A stretch of DNA of 64,000 nucleotides. Source: Cyanobacteria bacterium REEB459 (GTDB taxonomy: Bacteria > Cyanobacteriota > Cyanobacteriia > Phormidesmidales > Phormidesmidaceae). The notes under the pieces were generated by a model that was not told where the DNA came from, did not search any database, and was given only the letters and a program-made list of their open reading frames with translations. Both the position numbers and the translations under genes were made by a program. The DNA lies in assembly GCA_018970085.1 (NCBI GenBank), contig JAGWXD010000014.1, forward strand, positions 1 to 64,000, in the 5' to 3' direction. Positions 10,246 to 62,683 of this stretch are shown one piece after another; positions within the stretch are counted from its first letter, which is position 1, and each line of letters begins with the position of its first letter.

Positions 10246-10716
10246 CTACACTACTTCGTGGGTGTATCTGTGCTGTTTAACATTGTCAGCCCGAGATACT
10301 TTATTTTTGGCGTTAAGAATGCGCTTTCTCTCGGTGGAATAGTTGAGGTCACTACGGCTGGTACCTGCCGGAATCAGGGCTGTGGCTTCTGGGCGGCTTT
10401 GGTAGGTGCGGGCCGCCGCCATCAGCCGTTCTTCAAAGTCGGTGCAGCGTTGCAGGGGGCTATGGTCGGGCACGCTAAAGTCTGCCAGGGAAGCTGTTAG
10501 AGCCTGGTTCACAGTGGTTGCCCAAACCTGCCGGTACGAGGTGGGAATGCCCTGTAGCAAAGAGTGCAAATAGGCAGAGGGAATGGGCTCTAGTACGTAG
10601 ACAGCGTCCACCTCTGCCTCTTGCCTTAAATAGCAGGTCGCTAAACCAAGCAGAACGTAGCTGTCAGGAGATAGGGCCGGGGTAGAATTTTCAACCAAAG
10701 TTGACATGGTAGGCAT
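10246..10716 (-). CDS. Conserved cyanobacterial protein of unknown function
   Basis: This is a soluble protein of about 156 residues. I do not recognise a named domain, but segments such as YVLLGLATCYLR, VYVLEPIPSAYLH and LLQGIPTSY look familiar from small cyanobacterial proteins of unknown role. There is no signal peptide or membrane helix. The C-terminal third is rich in charged residues (TERKRILNAKNKVSRADNVK) and may be flexible. A second ATG three codons downstream (MSTLVENS) is an equally good start. It lies between another unknown protein and an orphan ABC ATPase, all on the minus strand, with about 70-120 bp gaps. Confidence 0.65.
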   Translation of the reverse strand: MPTMSTLVENSTPALSPDSYVLLGLATCYLRQEAEVDAVYVLEPIPSAYLHSLLQGIPTSYRQVWATTVNQALTASLADFSVPDHSPLQRCTDFEERLMAAARTYQSRPEATALIPAGTSRSDLNYSTERKRILNAKNKVSRADNVKQHRYTHEVV

Positions 10717-10787: not shown

Positions 10788-11393
10788 TCACAAAATAGAA
10801 CCATCCTGGGGAGGCTGCAGTTCGTCTAAGAGGATGGCGGCGATCGCCAGTCCCAATTTCGCCTGATCCACCGCAGACCGCTCTTGCCAGCCTACCTCCG
10901 GAGCCGATGCTAAAACCTGGGATTGCTGGCCACTACGAAAGGCATAGGCCAGGGGCCGGGCCAGTACCCTTAGATCATCGGCATCCCACCCTGGCAGGAC
11001 AGCGCCCCCACAATTGACCAGTTGCTGCAACCGCGACTCTTGACTGGCGGCAAGACTGACCGCTGTGGTGATCAGTGTCTGAAGCAAATCAACGGGTAAC
11101 AGTTTCTCAAAACGATGGATTAACTGGTCACGCCAGGGAGAGGCCAGAGCTTCCGCGTCAAGGGCTTGCCACTGTGCGCTCAATTGGGCTGATAGTTGTT
11201 CCCAGCCGGTTCCATCTATCGTCAGATCCACAGCCGGCGTCAGATCCGCAGCCGGGTGAATCGCCTCTGGGAGCAGCTCGGCGGCATCCCCACCCCAGCC
11301 AGAGCTGGTAGAACAGAGGATGGTCAGGAGTTCGGCAGCGATTGCCTGAGTATCATCGGGGAGAGAGGGCATCGATGCGGGTGGCTGGTTCAT
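10788..11393 (-). CDS. Hypothetical protein, soluble, all-helical appearance
   Basis: This 201-residue protein has no family I can name. It is acidic and Ala/Leu/Gln-rich with no signal peptide or membrane span. Predicted helices alternate with short loops (for example WEQLSAQLSAQWQAL and LLQTLITTAVSLAASQE), and it contains a short repeated word (PAADLTPAVDLT). It is downstream of the CHAT-FHA gene on the same strand, separated by about 165 bp that include a short palindrome. A functional link with the phosphatase/CHAT pair is possible but there is no direct evidence. Confidence 0.55.
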   Translation of the reverse strand: MNQPPASMPSLPDDTQAIAAELLTILCSTSSGWGGDAAELLPEAIHPAADLTPAVDLTIDGTGWEQLSAQLSAQWQALDAEALASPWRDQLIHRFEKLLPVDLLQTLITTAVSLAASQESRLQQLVNCGGAVLPGWDADDLRVLARPLAYAFRSGQQSQVLASAPEVGWQERSAVDQAKLGLAIAAILLDELQPPQDGSIL

Positions 11394-11558: not shown

Positions 11559-13184
11559 TCAAGCCTGGGTCGACCTGGAGGCTATATCCCCCTCCAGAAT
11601 AAATTCCATTTCCATGCCCTGGTCACTGCCAAACCGGAGCCGAGCGCCCAGAGGTAGCACTACTTCCTGGTGGTGTAAATGGCGCCAGGTTTGACCGTCA
11701 AAATAATAGGTGCCATTGCGGGATCTATCCCGTAGGTAGTAGTCCCTGGCCAACCCCTGGCGGTCCCTATTATGGCGATAGAAAATTTCAGCGTGGTGTG
11801 AAGACACCCAGGCCTCTGGAATCACCAACTGGTTGGTGGTCAATCGGCCGATGGTAAGCCTACCTGCTTGCAACCGCCAGCGCTGGGAAGGATTGTTCAA
11901 GGCCCGCACGACTGGGGTGTGATCAGGGGTAATAGACTCCTCCGGTAGCCGGGTAATGCCCTCGTCCAGGGTAATTAGCTCCCCACTAAACTGGGGGTGC
12001 TGGTAAAGCACCGGTAGGGTCCAGGCTGGATGGTTAAACCCGTAAGCGCTCAAGAGGTGCTGCCGCGAGCTGGCCATGGCTCTGGCTACCGATTGGCCCT
12101 GGGCCAATGCCTGAGTTAGGGTTTGGATAAATGTCAAAGCTTCCTGATCGGCGATGGAGTCCCGCATGGCAATCACCGCTGGTACACCATGGTGAAGGAG
12201 GACCTCTGCCAGACTACTGCGGGGAATGACCTGGTCCTGACGATAATCAGGTTGGGCTCCCCAGCAGGTATTTAAGACCGCCAATTTCACCCCTGCCCCC
12301 ACCAGGCTGTGGGCTAACTCTGTACCACTCAAGCTGACTCCAGGAGCCAACAGGAGCAGGCCGCCGTCAGCCGCAGGAACACCGTGACCGGCATAGACTA
12401 AAACATTGAAGCCTCCCTGGTGGAGAGTCCGTAGCAACAACTCCCGGTCCGGTCGAACCAGGGTAAACACCTGGCCTGGGGTGACTCCGTAGTTGCCTGA
12501 ACCGGGCAGACTGGTTTCTAGCAGCTGCTTCAGCAGGCTGGCTTCCTCAGATAGTTGCAGTTCCCGGGCAGAGACCGCAGGGTGGCTGGCGCTATCATCT
12601 CCGACCACTAAAAGTACTTGCAGAGCATGGCTGCGATCGCCCTGCCGCAACCCCTCCACCTTACTGGTACTACGGCTGAACAAAATGTGGGGTTCCAGAG
12701 CCAGGGGCGGGCGGCCTGGCTGAGGTTGCATAATTTCCCAGGGCAACCCAATCAGCTCTGCAGGGCACACTTCCAATTGCAGGTGCAAGGGCTCTCCCCG
12801 CCCCTCAGCCAGCCCCAGGCTACGGTCCAAGGTTTGGCCCAGGGGTCCATCAAAAATCCAGTTCCACAGCCCCATCCCGAGGTTTTGCATGAGCCGCTCA
12901 CTGGTGCTACCGGCGGTCAGGGGCGATGGCATTGATAGCGACAGGTGATCCTCCAGACCAAGGGACAGGCAGGGGGCCACCGACAGAGGACTGACCTGGG
13001 GCAGGTGACGCTGGCAAAAAAACTCCTGCCATAGCTGCCACAGATCTGCCATGGTGACATCCCAGGTCCGGTCATAGTGGCTGTAGCCATCCGCCGGAAA
13101 GGGATGGTCCACCACCCAAAAGGCATAATGGGGAAGGGCTGTCTGGGTGAGTCGATCAACCAAAATCCGCAGAGTTATGGCCAT
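11559..13184 (-). CDS. CHAT-domain caspase-like protease with C-terminal FHA domain
   Basis: The 541-residue protein combines two modules. A CHAT domain (about residues 95-395) shows the caspase-like dyad: His267 in VYAGHG and Cys307 in LNTCWG, each at the end of a hydrophobic strand as expected for clan CD peptidases. An FHA domain follows (about residues 440-525) with the phosphothreonine-reading motifs LTIGR, SSHHAE and RSRNGTYY. Residues 1-95 are of unknown function. The gene starts 21 bp after the stop of the PP2C phosphatase gene, so the two are very likely co-transcribed. A protease whose partner choice depends on Thr phosphorylation is a reasonable inference; the substrate is unknown. 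No signal peptide is seen, so it should be cytoplasmic. Confidence 0.85.
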   Translation of the reverse strand: MAITLRILVDRLTQTALPHYAFWVVDHPFPADGYSHYDRTWDVTMADLWQLWQEFFCQRHLPQVSPLSVAPCLSLGLEDHLSLSMPSPLTAGSTSERLMQNLGMGLWNWIFDGPLGQTLDRSLGLAEGRGEPLHLQLEVCPAELIGLPWEIMQPQPGRPPLALEPHILFSRSTSKVEGLRQGDRSHALQVLLVVGDDSASHPAVSARELQLSEEASLLKQLLETSLPGSGNYGVTPGQVFTLVRPDRELLLRTLHQGGFNVLVYAGHGVPAADGGLLLLAPGVSLSGTELAHSLVGAGVKLAVLNTCWGAQPDYRQDQVIPRSSLAEVLLHHGVPAVIAMRDSIADQEALTFIQTLTQALAQGQSVARAMASSRQHLLSAYGFNHPAWTLPVLYQHPQFSGELITLDEGITRLPEESITPDHTPVVRALNNPSQRWRLQAGRLTIGRLTTNQLVIPEAWVSSHHAEIFYRHNRDRQGLARDYYLRDRSRNGTYYFDGQTWRHLHHQEVVLPLGARLRFGSDQGMEMEFILEGDIASRSTQA

Positions 13185-13205
13185 AGCAGCAACGCAATGT
13201 AGATA

Positions 13206-15467
13206 TTAGAGCCCTGATAAACACTGGCCTACCTGAGTGCGGGTGGCGCTATCTAGCAGATCGGCCAGCTGCTGAAGCAGATAGGCCCTCACCCAACCCT
13301 GGCTGCCCGGTGGGGTGAGGCTGCCCTCCAGAGACCCTGCGGAGTTCCTGCGGCTGAGGGGCTGGTTAGTTTCCTGAGGCATTTGAGCCAGAGAAAGCCC
13401 TGAGGGAATTGAGCAAACCTGTAATCGGGCCCAGCGGGTTTGATCGGCAAGGGTTTGGATGCGAGTTACCCGGACAATACTGCCGGCCCCGATCATCGGG
13501 CTACCTGGAATGGTGCCTGGCTGGGGAGAAGGGACCAGGCGTAACCCATCGGAGACATGACCAGGGGAGGAGGCCCTCAACTGCCACAGGGACCCCAGGG
13601 ATACGGGAGTTAACCTTTCTCGAGCCAGTTGCAGCAGGGGTTCTCCCGTTACCCCTGGGGCTAGCCGGTCGATCGCCGATTGCCAGGGAATGGGGGCCGC
13701 TGTGGACTGCCTTTGATGATGATAAAACCAGACCGCCTGCACCAGTAAAACAGCAGTTCCAAGCCCTGTCCAGAGGGGCCAGCGGTTGACCCCATGGGCC
13801 CCAGACTGGGCCCGGGCAGCAGAGGCTACCGGGGCCTGGGGCCTGGGCTGAGGAATTGAGGTCAACCCCTGATCTGGCAGATTGACCTGGGTCTCAACCC
13901 GGGGCCGCAGAACCATCAAACCAACCGTGACGTTATCGTGGCCATTGAGACGATTGGCCTGCTGAATTAGGGCTTGACTGAGGCTACTGAGATCGGCTTG
14001 GCCATTGATCAGGGCCTGAATGGTAGGGCGCCAGAGAGCATCGACTCGGTCATTGTCGCTCAAACCATCGGAGCAGAGGAGCAGCAAACTGGGGTCGTCC
14101 AACAGCAGGAATTGAACCGATGGCGACAGGAAACTGGTATCGTTAATCCCCAAGGCCTGAATCAAGGCACCGCCGCTGGGCATCTGGGCCGCCTCAGGAT
14201 AGAGGGCGTAGCCCTGCTGGGCTTCCCGGGAGGCTATATCATCATCCAGGGTAATCTGATAGCAGGTTTTAGGACTGATGCGGTAGGCCCGGCTATCGCC
14301 AACGTGGACGATATAGACATAGGGAAAATAGACCACAGCCATGACCACCGTAGTACCCATCCGGGCTCGCTCGGAGCGCTGTTCCTGGTTATTGCGACTG
14401 ACCAGGGCCTGATTGGCCAGGTTGACGGCCTGCTTGAGGTGCTGGCCGATCAACTCGGGAGTCAGGTCGGCGCAGGTACGCAGCCCGGTCAGCTGGTGTA
14501 GTAAGACTTCGACAGCGGTTTGGGAGGCCACATTCCCCTGTTCGTGGCCACCAATGCCATCACACACCAGCACTAAGGGCAAGACCTCAGGGGTGCCGTA
14601 GCTGACCCTGAGGGTGTTCATCAGCCCCTGGGGGTGACAGGCATCTTCATTGCGGTTGCGACTGGGCCCCTGATCGGTGTGGGCGACCCAGTCAATCTGT
14701 ACGGTGAGTCCCTGGGCAAGGGTTTGGAGGGCTTGCTCTAACTCGGCTATCAGTTCTCGGCTGGTGGTCAGCCTGGCTTCCACCAGGGCAGTGACTAGCC
14801 AGCCCAGGTAGGCCTGAATCGAAGGTTGGGCAGAGTCCACCAGGGATTGCCAGCTCTGACCTAGGGAAGTCAGGCTGATAGAGGCGGGATAATCATCATC
14901 GTGGCTTAGGGTGGTGATGCGAAGCAGAGCTCCATCAGTTCTCAGGCCGGTTACTTGCAGGAGGGTAGAAGCTACGTTTTGCTGATGCAGACGGGGCCAG
15001 AGTAGGGCAATTTGCCTTAGCCAGTTGAGTTGTTGCAGGGCAGAAGCCCCAGTCCAGCCTGCCAGCAGAGATGGCAAAAGCTGTACCTGTAGGTGGCCGT
15101 CCTCTCTCTCCCAGGTCTGAATTGGAGCCGCCTCCAGTAGGAGCAGGGGGGCACTTAAGCCCGACAGGTCGGGGGTCAGATAAATATAGGGCCGGGGAAT
15201 GTGCTGGGCTAGATCCGCAAGCCGCAGGTAGGGAAGGGCGATCGCCGGAACTTTATAGACCAGCTTAACGGGTAGCTCGGGTTGGGTATCCAGCCAGATC
15301 GGCGACTGCCAAACCCGGTAGCGATCGCCCACCCAGCTATCAGGGCTAGCTAAATTAGGACCATCCGCCAACAGAAAGCGATACAGCAGAGGGGTTTGAC
15401 AGGTAAGACAACGGCCTATCGGCGGTGTAGTCACGGCTCGACAGGTAGGATTGGAGCACTGGATCAC
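13206..15467 (-). CDS. PP2C-type protein phosphatase with zinc ribbon, kinase-like region and membrane anchor
   Basis: This 753-residue protein starts with a zinc ribbon (Cys4, Cys9, Cys20, Cys23). Residues 45-250 have the hydrophobic rhythm of a protein kinase but lack HRD and DFG, so they may be a pseudokinase. A full PP2C domain (about 258-522) carries every metal motif: HTDQG, RNRNED, CDGIGGH, GDSRAYR, CSDGLSDND and GHDN. A Pro-rich linker, one membrane helix (about 563-582) and a C-terminal domain of about 165 residues follow. It should dephosphorylate Ser/Thr proteins at the inner membrane. It precedes the CHAT-FHA gene by 21 bp, which suggests that the phosphatase acts on proteins bound by that FHA domain or on the CHAT protein itself. 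Confidence 0.88.
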   Translation of the reverse strand: MIQCSNPTCRAVTTPPIGRCLTCQTPLLYRFLLADGPNLASPDSWVGDRYRVWQSPIWLDTQPELPVKLVYKVPAIALPYLRLADLAQHIPRPYIYLTPDLSGLSAPLLLLEAAPIQTWEREDGHLQVQLLPSLLAGWTGASALQQLNWLRQIALLWPRLHQQNVASTLLQVTGLRTDGALLRITTLSHDDDYPASISLTSLGQSWQSLVDSAQPSIQAYLGWLVTALVEARLTTSRELIAELEQALQTLAQGLTVQIDWVAHTDQGPSRNRNEDACHPQGLMNTLRVSYGTPEVLPLVLVCDGIGGHEQGNVASQTAVEVLLHQLTGLRTCADLTPELIGQHLKQAVNLANQALVSRNNQEQRSERARMGTTVVMAVVYFPYVYIVHVGDSRAYRISPKTCYQITLDDDIASREAQQGYALYPEAAQMPSGGALIQALGINDTSFLSPSVQFLLLDDPSLLLLCSDGLSDNDRVDALWRPTIQALINGQADLSSLSQALIQQANRLNGHDNVTVGLMVLRPRVETQVNLPDQGLTSIPQPRPQAPVASAARAQSGAHGVNRWPLWTGLGTAVLLVQAVWFYHHQRQSTAAPIPWQSAIDRLAPGVTGEPLLQLARERLTPVSLGSLWQLRASSPGHVSDGLRLVPSPQPGTIPGSPMIGAGSIVRVTRIQTLADQTRWARLQVCSIPSGLSLAQMPQETNQPLSRRNSAGSLEGSLTPPGSQGWVRAYLLQQLADLLDSATRTQVGQCLSGL

Positions 15468-15528: not shown

Positions 15529-15861
15529 TCACTCCTTCACGACCTGGGGTAGACCCATGCTGTAATTGAGGGCTCGACTCTTGAGGTTATAACTAATTGA
15601 TCCTGTTTGCAGCAATTGCTTAATAAAGTGTTCTAGATCGGAGCCAATTCGACGCAGATTATAGTCGGTCAAATCCTGCCCGTTAGACCCATCGACTAAG
15701 CGATCAAACTCAGCATAAACGGCCTTAAGGGCGTCTTCAGACCAGTTAAACTCGTTATCAGGATCAACATCTAGAGTGAGGCGGTCATCGCTGGGCACCA
15801 ACTGGTTAGAGTCAACCACAGCGGTGTAAATGTGGACGTGACGAGTGGTGGATTTCAACAT
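15529..15861 (-). CDS. ndhM: NAD(P)H-quinone oxidoreductase subunit M
   Basis: NdhM is a peripheral subunit of the cyanobacterial and chloroplast NDH-1 complex, which takes electrons from ferredoxin for cyclic flow, respiration and CO2 uptake at the thylakoid. The 110-residue protein matches the family over its whole length; recognisable segments are KSTTRHVHIYTA, LTLDVDPDNEFNW, DLTDYNLRRIGSDLEH and ALNYSMGLPQV. I chose the ATG at 15861 because it gives the family's usual N-terminus; an in-frame ATG eight codons upstream would add an unconserved leader. It stands alone, as ndhM often does, with a 10-bp hairpin about 65 bp upstream. Confidence 0.95.
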   Translation of the reverse strand: MLKSTTRHVHIYTAVVDSNQLVPSDDRLTLDVDPDNEFNWSEDALKAVYAEFDRLVDGSNGQDLTDYNLRRIGSDLEHFIKQLLQTGSISYNLKSRALNYSMGLPQVVKE

Positions 15862-15924
15862 AATCAACAAGATGCCTTCACTCAAATAACTCCAGGTTCA
15901 GCTTGGCAAATAACAACAGTATAG

Positions 15925-60583: not shown

Positions 60584-62683
60584 CTAGGGATCGGACCCAG
60601 GCATCTGCCATAGGCGAATTTGAGAAGGACTGCCACCAATGGTCACCAGCTGTCGACTATTGGGCAATAGGGCAAAGCGCCAGACATCGGTGGTAAATCC
60701 ACTGATCTGGTCAGCCCCTGGGCAGATCTGGGACTGCCGGTCCCCTAGGTGCCAGCGCACCATGGTTGGCACATTCTGTGCAATCCAGACCTGGTCTTCA
60801 CCGCGGGGCCCTAATTCCAGGCTGTTTACTATGGTTTTCTGGTTTGTCTTTAAAGTGGCCCTCAAAGTTGCCCCTTGGGGCCCAGCTACCCGGTCCCAAA
60901 GGGTCACAGTACCGTCTACCGACCCTGCTACCAGGGTGCGATCATCGTGGCTGATGGCCAGATAGTTGATCAGAGCACCCGAACCCTCCAGGGTGACTGG
61001 GGCCAGGGTAGCCGGCGGGGCGGGCTGGTCGGCGGTGCTTAGATCCCAAAGCTGCAGTGCCTTGCCAGCGCTGACTAAAAGCCTATCATCGCGGCTAAAC
61101 AATAGATCATTTACAGTGCCGTCAGCTTTGAGGGTGAGACGGGGGCTCTGCCCCGAGGACAGCGGCAAAGACCAGAGTTTAATAGTGCCATCACCATCGG
61201 CGCTAGCCAGAAATTTATTGTCACCCCTAACCTCCAGAGCGTTGATCGGCACCTCATGGGCATTGCTAATCACCCCTATGGCTTCGCCCTCGGGCAGAGA
61301 CCAGAGGCGCAGGGTGCGATCGTCACCGGCGCTGATCAGACTGTTCTGGTCTGTGGTCAGGGCCAGGGCTTTGACCACGTTGGTGTGTTGAGTCAGAGAA
61401 CGAATCTGTTTCTTCCTGGTCGGGTCCCAAAACCGAATGGTCTGGTCGTCACTGGCGGTAATCAACAGCTGACCCTGATGCCATAGTTTCAGGTCTTTGA
61501 TTTCTCCCCTATGACCGAGCAGCACCCCAGCGGGGGTCACCGCCAGGGACCTGGCGGTGCTGGGGAGGGAGCAGACAGGTGCAGTACCCCGACGGCTGAG
61601 ACCATACCAGCCTAAGGGCAGGGCCAGGCCAGCCAGACCCACCACCACCCAGATCGAAATCCCAAGCCGGCAACGCTTGGGGGCCGTAGGGTTGGGGCTG
61701 GTAACCGGCCAGTCGGGCAGGGCTGGGGGCGGGATGGGGGCAGCAGATTGGGTTGGCATCACCGGGTCTGGGGCCAATCGCACCTGGGCCAGGGCTTCTA
61801 GAATGGCCTGGGTGGTCTGGGGACGATGGGCAGCAGCGGTGGCGGTGAGCTGGTCAATCAAGTCCGCCAGGGCCGCAGAAATTTGGGGAGCGTAGGGACG
61901 CCAGTTAAACTGATTCGTACGGGAATCATAGATGGCAGGGTCATTGGGAGCTCTGGCGGTGACTAGATAAATCAGGGTGCGACCCATGGCATAGAAATCA
62001 GACTGGGGCACCGCCTGGCCCTGCTCCTGTTCGGGGGGAGTATAGCCCGCTGAGCTAACGGTGGTAATGCCACTGTCTCCCAGCTGGGCCAGGTAGGTTT
62101 GGGTCATTTCCCGGGCTGCTCCGAAGTCCACCAACACCAGTTGCCCGGAGGGTCGCAGCATAATATTGTCGGGCTTGATATCGCGATGAAAGTAATTCTG
62201 CCGGTGGATCAGGTGCAGTACATCGGTCAGTTGGGTAAGCCAGAGGATGGCTTGTTTTTCGCTAATCGGGTGATTACCCTGCTGCACCATCCACTGTTTC
62301 AGGTCAGGGCCATCGATTTTCTCCATGATTAAACAGTGACAGGGTTCGCTACTATCCTGGGGAAAATAGTGGAAATAGCCCCGGGGTTCGATCCGGGGTA
62401 CCCCGGGATGGTTGAGACGGCTCAGAACCTCGCCCTCTCGTCGAAACAAATCGACTACCTTTTGATTGTGGTTATAGCTTGGCTTCAAGACCTTCAAGAT
62501 CTTCGGTATATTTTGGTCGTAGGCCTCATAGATCTGACCAAAGCCGGTCTGCTGACTGATCAGGCGCATAACCCGATAGCGCCCCTGCAACAGTAAACTA
62601 GAGCCACAGGCCGCGCAATGGGCCTGGGTGCCATTATCGGCATGGTTTGGTTGGGGACAGCGCGGGTTAATACAGAGACTCAT
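60584..62683 (-). CDS. Ser/Thr protein kinase with zinc ribbon and C-terminal WD40 repeats
   Basis: The 699-residue protein has an N-terminal zinc ribbon (Cys4, Cys9, Cys23, Cys26), and then a Hanks-type kinase domain (about residues 36-300) with FHRDIKPDN (Asp168) and VDFGAA (Asp186), so it should be active. A Pro-rich linker and one membrane helix (about 341-358) follow. The C-terminus is a WD40 propeller of about six or seven blades (HRGEIKDLKLW, SDDQTIRFWD, ADGDGTIKLWSL). This is a common cyanobacterial layout, with the propeller probably outside the membrane as a sensor or binding platform. Its zinc-ribbon head has the same Cys4-x4-Cys9 start as the PP2C phosphatase at 13.2-15.5 kb. Confidence 0.92.
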   Translation of the reverse strand: MSLCINPRCPQPNHADNGTQAHCAACGSSLLLQGRYRVMRLISQQTGFGQIYEAYDQNIPKILKVLKPSYNHNQKVVDLFRREGEVLSRLNHPGVPRIEPRGYFHYFPQDSSEPCHCLIMEKIDGPDLKQWMVQQGNHPISEKQAILWLTQLTDVLHLIHRQNYFHRDIKPDNIMLRPSGQLVLVDFGAAREMTQTYLAQLGDSGITTVSSAGYTPPEQEQGQAVPQSDFYAMGRTLIYLVTARAPNDPAIYDSRTNQFNWRPYAPQISAALADLIDQLTATAAAHRPQTTQAILEALAQVRLAPDPVMPTQSAAPIPPPALPDWPVTSPNPTAPKRCRLGISIWVVVGLAGLALPLGWYGLSRRGTAPVCSLPSTARSLAVTPAGVLLGHRGEIKDLKLWHQGQLLITASDDQTIRFWDPTRKKQIRSLTQHTNVVKALALTTDQNSLISAGDDRTLRLWSLPEGEAIGVISNAHEVPINALEVRGDNKFLASADGDGTIKLWSLPLSSGQSPRLTLKADGTVNDLLFSRDDRLLVSAGKALQLWDLSTADQPAPPATLAPVTLEGSGALINYLAISHDDRTLVAGSVDGTVTLWDRVAGPQGATLRATLKTNQKTIVNSLELGPRGEDQVWIAQNVPTMVRWHLGDRQSQICPGADQISGFTTDVWRFALLPNSRQLVTIGGSPSQIRLWQMPGSDP

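Follow-up and report, generated by a model that had tools for sequence, protein, structure and literature searches.

The window analysed here is the whole 64,000-nucleotide stretch of contig JAGWXD010000014.1 from Cyanobacteria bacterium REEB459. On its minus strand lie three neighbouring genes that are tentatively read as a chromosomal signalling module, a proposal that is quite possible yet short of probable: a membrane PP2C phosphatase, a caspase-like protease fused to an FHA domain (CHAT-FHA), and D201, the name given to the 201-amino-acid (aa) product of the third gene. As proposed, the protease docks through its FHA domain and D201 is its regulated target. The module genes are:

13206-15467, minus strand: membrane-anchored PP2C phosphatase gene (membrane helix predicted); open reading frame (ORF) of 753 aa with a GTG start; Pfam; AlphaFold2 model with a mean predicted local distance difference test score (pLDDT) of 83.9
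11559-13184, minus strand: CHAT-FHA gene; ORF of 541 aa with an ATG start; Pfam CHAT and FHA; 109 orthologues
10788-11393, minus strand: D201 gene, 201 aa, downstream of CHAT-FHA; co-occurrence, adjacency and AlphaFold2 model

Support comes from the sequence, namely the domains, the conservation of the active site, gene order, co-occurrence, a linker motif with its specificity, and the decay of a D201 signature in one lineage. The original prediction had described the first two genes as a pair on one strand, 21 base pairs (bp) apart. Both ORFs lie exactly where it placed them and with that spacing; the block it drew was nonetheless incomplete, as the gene 165 bp downstream of CHAT-FHA also belongs to it. 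The pair becomes a trio, and the overlooked D201 is the more constant partner of CHAT-FHA.

Gene order and co-occurrence

Among 292 genomes of the cyanobacterial phylum, in which CHAT-FHA was told apart from HetF-like proteins by score, 68 carry CHAT-FHA, 98 a member of the PP2C family and 70 D201. Both CHAT-FHA and D201 are found in 67 genomes, adjacent on the same strand in 50 and non-adjacent in 17; since these 17 hold both genes apart, shared linkage alone does not account for the co-occurrence. Its hypergeometric probability of 3e-61 is inflated by phylogeny. Within four families of mixed state, the two genes agree in 21 of the 24 listed genomes (6/1/0/8 in family f6 alone).

Adjacency was counted in flank-limited subsets of 80 named loci. 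Conserved neighbourhood of the PP2C and CHAT-FHA genes was a check set in advance, and it is borne out: PP2C is a same-strand neighbour of CHAT-FHA in 39/68 genomes and lies beside it in 53 of the 63 named loci with enough upstream sequence. Because both genes and their adjacency are conserved over many families, chance is excluded for this pair. Where the flanks suffice on both sides (57 loci), both partners lie beside CHAT-FHA on one strand in 42, D201 only in 8, PP2C only in 5 and neither in 2. The order ndhM, PP2C, CHAT-FHA, D201 prevails in most named loci; in three from Laspinema (L085, L089 and L100) D201 stands upstream of CHAT-FHA, the order changed and the neighbourhood kept. The ndhM gene, separated from PP2C by 61 bp in the window, served as a control and is left out of the module count:

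15529-15885, minus strand: ndhM, upstream of PP2C; Pfam NdhM, E=1.9e-51; in 52/80 named loci

The phosphatase is not an obligate companion, contrary to its original casting as a dedicated one. Thirteen genomes (and 8 named loci) keep CHAT-FHA with D201 and no PP2C alongside, and the PP2C family also occurs in 31 genomes devoid of CHAT-FHA. These counts, together with the absence of the linker motif described below from the window PP2C, are what a passive phosphatase would produce: the true pair would be CHAT-FHA and D201, the FHA domain would read a kinase or another phosphoprotein, and the adjacency of PP2C would be inherited like that of ndhM. This explanation is rather unlikely given that only PP2Cs of CHAT-FHA genomes carry the motif, and given residual co-divergence of PP2C with both CHAT-FHA and D201. 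Once the third module protein and NdhM are allowed for, pairwise divergences of the three module proteins over 46 four-gene loci remain correlated (partial r 0.41-0.43, permutation p 0.001). The control, D201 against NdhM, gives r -0.01 and is noisy, as NdhM is short.

The neighbourhood also bears on the link to defence that had been drawn for the pair. CHAT and caspase-like proteases, Csx29 for example, do serve defence and cell death elsewhere, and an abortive-infection protease that kills the cell on phosphorylation signals would belong to that company. For this locus it is most improbable: the three module proteins have no PADLOC-DB match at E 0.001, plasmids yield no close homologue of CHAT-FHA or D201, viral contigs no relative of D201, and the module exists as one chromosomal copy whose stable surroundings are inherited together with ndhM.

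The protease, the phosphatase and its linker

The principal features of CHAT-FHA are:

12036-12878, minus strand: CHAT (caspase/separase-like) domain, residues 103-383; Pfam PF12770, genome search
12384-12386, minus strand: codon of catalytic His267; invariant in 109/109 orthologues
12264-12266, minus strand: codon of catalytic Cys307; invariant in 109/109 orthologues
11628-11855, minus strand: FHA domain, residues 444-519, with phosphate-binding Arg447 and Ser461; Pfam PF00498

Both domains pass their curated cut-offs comfortably (CHAT, E=4.4e-23, 82.6 bits vs 24; FHA, E=5.1e-12, 46.5 bits vs 20.7), and a Pfam scan of the protein up to E=1 returned these two alone, with no tetratricopeptide repeats (TPRs). 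The His267/Cys307 dyad sits at the positions first assigned to it, and is retained in every orthologue at roughly 38-58% identity to the window protein. CHAT-FHA is here predicted to be a soluble caspase-like cysteine protease. Proteolysis by the family stays a prediction; a catalytically silent scaffold using its caspase fold for binding only would have no need of an invariant catalytic dyad, and is very improbable.

The FHA domain was originally taken to read phosphothreonine. The phosphate-binding residues agree with this, Arg447 being kept in 99/109 and Ser461 in 109/109 orthologues. His464 is kept in 108/109, whereas the canonical Asn490, which reads the peptide backbone, is kept in 16/109 only. 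The window domain itself has all four residues. No paper joining CHAT to FHA was found in the literature searched, with subscription journals mostly outside its reach.

The phosphatase is a composite protein, from its N-terminus onward:

15387-15467, minus strand: N-terminal zinc ribbon (Cys4, 9, 20, 23); DZR match in 21/35 members, the four Cys at least 90% conserved
14709-15386, minus strand: well-folded domain of no assigned family, residues 28-253; pLDDT mostly >90
13893-14702, minus strand: PP2C catalytic domain, residues 256-525; Pfam, fold comparison
13782-13892, minus strand: cytosolic low-complexity linker, the site of a T[QR]xx motif in relatives that is absent in the window PP2C; sequence comparison
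13719-13781, minus strand: predicted membrane helix, residues about 563-583; AlphaFold2 helix 563-589, hydropathy
13209-13610, minus strand: beta-rich C-terminal part, SH3-like in some relatives; SH3_3 in 3/35 members, best E 0.0027; AlphaFold2 model

Its catalytic identity is clear. PP2C_2 matches residues 294-485 above the cut-off (E=1.1e-10, 41.9 bits vs 24), the domain superposes on tPphA/Stp1 with Z about 26, and the acidic metal motifs RNED, DGIGGH, SDG and GHDN are intact, as had been read from the sequence, and invariant among 35 aligned relatives. The membrane anchor ascribed to the same protein is less secure in the window, where helix 563-589 is weakly hydrophobic (Kyte-Doolittle mean 1.27 over 19 residues); most homologues have a clear helix at 1.6-2.8. 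Two equivalog models fall short of their cut-offs, Stp1/IreP (NF033484) with 148 bits vs 230 and PRK14559 (NF011149) with 233.3 vs 374. The domain at residues 28-253, about 225 aa long, is possibly a degenerate kinase-like fold, a suggestion, as yet unproved, drawn from the order of its elements. Alignment to kinases by hhalign is colinear but weak (probability 4%), Pkinase matches none of the 35 members, and structure searches are swamped by the PP2C domain.

The short linker ahead of the membrane helix offers a candidate tie between phosphatase and protease. The sequence T[QR][ILVQ][ILV] occurs there in 27 of 57 PP2Cs linked to CHAT-FHA, the window protein counted among them, against a mean of 1.6 and a maximum of 5 in shuffled linkers. 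Two of the five unlinked PP2Cs of CHAT-FHA genomes carry it as well, making 29/62 for such genomes overall, compared to 0/15 in genomes without CHAT-FHA and 0/20 among the paralogous membrane PP2Cs of CHAT-FHA genomes. A longer form, [KPS]T[QR][ILV][ILV]xP, is placed mostly 12-31 residues ahead of the helix, as exemplified by LKTQLVAPRA, AKTQVIPENP and PSTRLVAPAS. Ligand choice by FHA domains is known to depend on the pT+3 residue, valine being one such residue (PMC5549992), and the shape of the motif suggests a candidate FHA docking site. The idea of a phosphorylation-gated CHAT protease with a partner phosphatase survives, now with a specific docking prediction: a threonine motif suited to FHA in many linked PP2Cs, absent from their paralogues.

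D201 and the genomes without an intact CHAT-FHA gene

D201 matched no Pfam or NCBIfam family. Its AlphaFold2 model is all-helical, confident from about residue 61, with a mean pLDDT of 79.7; Foldseek gave no match below E 1.8 and none rose above a VIA Z of 4.2, an uninformative outcome for a helical bundle. A profile search of PDB chains yielded weak helical matches only (best E 0.034), a result that also bears on any likeness to Csx30. One element stands out:

10935-10976, minus strand: D201 signature DL.VLARPLAYAMR, residues 140-153; D140, R146 and R153 invariant in 37/37 members of the reference alignment

The model places the signature in a helix (138-153), after which comes a variable loop.

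Only three genomes hold D201 without an intact CHAT-FHA gene. In G005 a CHAT-FHA remnant with seven in-frame stops persists between PP2C and D201 (L111:6145-6351, plus strand), and in G123 the FHA end of the gene remains, cut off by the contig end. In G207, CHAT-FHA has been cleanly deleted (L113:5764-6750) from a locus otherwise syntenic with those of its congeners G002 and G066. The D201 protein of G207 has G, G and E in place of D140, R146 and R153, all three invariant in the reference alignment. Relaxed evolution of the whole protein after loss of the protease was considered and rejected: the rise in nonsynonymous divergence (dN) resembles that of neighbouring genes, and only the invariant positions stand out. 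Because the overall rate of D201 in G207 is not unusual, the loss of the signature is local. Such decay, in this one lineage, is what would be expected of residues that the protease contacts or cuts.

A separate identification of D201, with the RNase E regulator RebA, was set aside by description: RebA also acts in Synechococcus PCC 7942, whereas every genome in which D201 was found has at least a trace of CHAT-FHA.

Taken together, these observations are consistent with the following scheme. The module, usually sited downstream of ndhM, would work through docking of the FHA domain of CHAT-FHA on a phosphothreonine, which in many lineages probably lies in the short cytosolic linker of the neighbouring membrane PP2C. 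A Hanks-type kinase encoded away from the module would phosphorylate this site and so recruit the protease to the membrane; PP2C would release it by stripping phosphate from itself or from the kinase. D201 would be the regulated target, most likely a dedicated substrate held or cut near the DL.VLARPLAYAMR helix, with presumed cellular effects downstream, or otherwise an obligate regulator. In its most specific form, in which a phosphothreonine-switched CHAT protease docks via FHA on the membrane-proximal linker of its partner phosphatase and cuts D201, a dedicated substrate of a new family, the scheme is unlikely to be right in every step.

The role of D201 is where a rival comes closest. D201 could form a pair with CHAT-FHA and yet go uncut, as an adaptor, inhibitor or activator in the manner of securin, with the true substrate elsewhere in the genome. 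The near one-to-one co-occurrence, in unlinked genes too, suits such a regulator; so does the signature, whose conserved form is a helix and not an exposed loop, and its loss along with the protease suits an interface just as well as a cut site. A regulatory D201 is possible, though doubtful. The substrate role is modestly preferred because, where a well-studied CHAT protease has a constant partner, it cuts that partner, as in Csx29/Csx30 and HetF/PatU3.

Several observations weigh against the proposed module. One fragmented genome (G237, 300 contigs), the sole such case, has CHAT-FHA with D201 undetected. The decayed signature is known from a single lineage, and the signature arginines are located inside a predicted helix or at its end. 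The backbone-reading FHA Asn is replaced by Tyr or Phe in 89/109 relatives. On the phosphatase side, adjacency may partly be passive synteny, as the retention of ndhM illustrates, and about half of the linked PP2Cs, the window protein included, lack the linker motif. The p values for the motif, 6e-5 to 6e-4, are optimistic, because it was spotted by eye before testing and related sequences are not independent.

Kindred systems and the wider neighbourhood

Of the bacterial CHAT proteases, Csx29 is known to be switched by an RNA-guided complex and HetF to be tied to development; no example read through phosphothreonine was found in the literature searched. HetF, which acts in heterocyst differentiation and cell division of Anabaena, is like CHAT-FHA a cyanobacterial CHAT protease, and its NCBIfam model is the closest to CHAT-FHA (144.7 bits over residues 101-404), well short of the equivalog cut-off of 1200 (NF045509). 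HetF can cleave one regulator, PatU3 (PMC12288457). It has a membrane segment and TPRs (PMC8406250), where CHAT-FHA has an FHA domain instead, and HetF-like genes are separate from CHAT-FHA and found in many of the same genomes. Craspase, of type III-E CRISPR, offers a second parallel, pairing a CHAT protease with a neighbouring protein dedicated to it: the TPR-CHAT protein Csx29 cuts Csx30 in a flexible loop (PMC10028731). Csx29 is activated by RNA through Cas7-11 and has TPRs, which CHAT-FHA lacks, and searches with D201 gave no clear sequence or fold match among solved structures.

For the phosphorylation side, the nearest analogue is the PpkA-PppA-Fha switch of type VI secretion, in which an FHA protein binds phosphothreonine on membrane TssL and a PP2C counters it (PMC3953482). 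The present module would likewise combine a PP2C phosphatase with a phosphothreonine-binding FHA protein, as judged from sequence; it differs in that its FHA domain is fused to a CHAT protease and that the PP2C itself carries the candidate phosphosite. PRK14559, a cyanobacterial Ser/Thr phosphatase family, matches the PP2C part of the window protein, which nevertheless forms a subfamily of its own, its linker being different and its C-terminal part longer; the same genomes also encode a paralogous PP2C of about 650 aa. Cyanobacterial orthocaspases (p20 domain) share the His-Cys caspase fold with CHAT-FHA and belong to a different caspase subfamily. In a survey of 473 of them there is no mention of FHA or of a phosphatase, and a single association with CHAT is noted (PMC8283722).

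The module is widespread and passed on vertically, and one partner belongs to no known family; it offers a directly testable protease-partner pair together with a specific docking-peptide prediction. To our knowledge, the outputs of cyanobacterial Hanks-type Ser/Thr signalling are largely unknown. If the proposal is true, this signalling would be joined to regulated proteolysis, and the module would be a kinase- and phosphatase-gated bacterial counterpart of separase- or caspase-type control.

The source lineage is atypical at two sites, the PP2C linker without its motif and D201 residues 33-35 (11289-11297, minus strand), which read WGG rather than the YPW of relatives (Y and P in 36/37, W in 35/37). 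Scans of the gene block for promoters, terminators and RNA families gave nothing above chance. Downstream of D201, a 156-aa ORF (10246-10716, minus strand) has no significant Pfam or NCBIfam match, with relatives in at most three named loci. At 60584-62683 (minus strand), ~45 kilobases from the PP2C/CHAT-FHA pair, the contig also encodes a Hanks-type kinase, and Pkinase matches above cut-off fall in eight places in the source genome. About 19 named loci have, convergent with D201 and downstream of it, a gene that joins an FHA domain to a PrsW-type intramembrane metalloprotease, adding a second phospho-reading protease to the neighbourhood; none was seen beside the module in the window. Examples are:

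L074:12900-14330, minus strand: FHA-PrsW gene
L111:7180-8532, minus strand: FHA-PrsW gene

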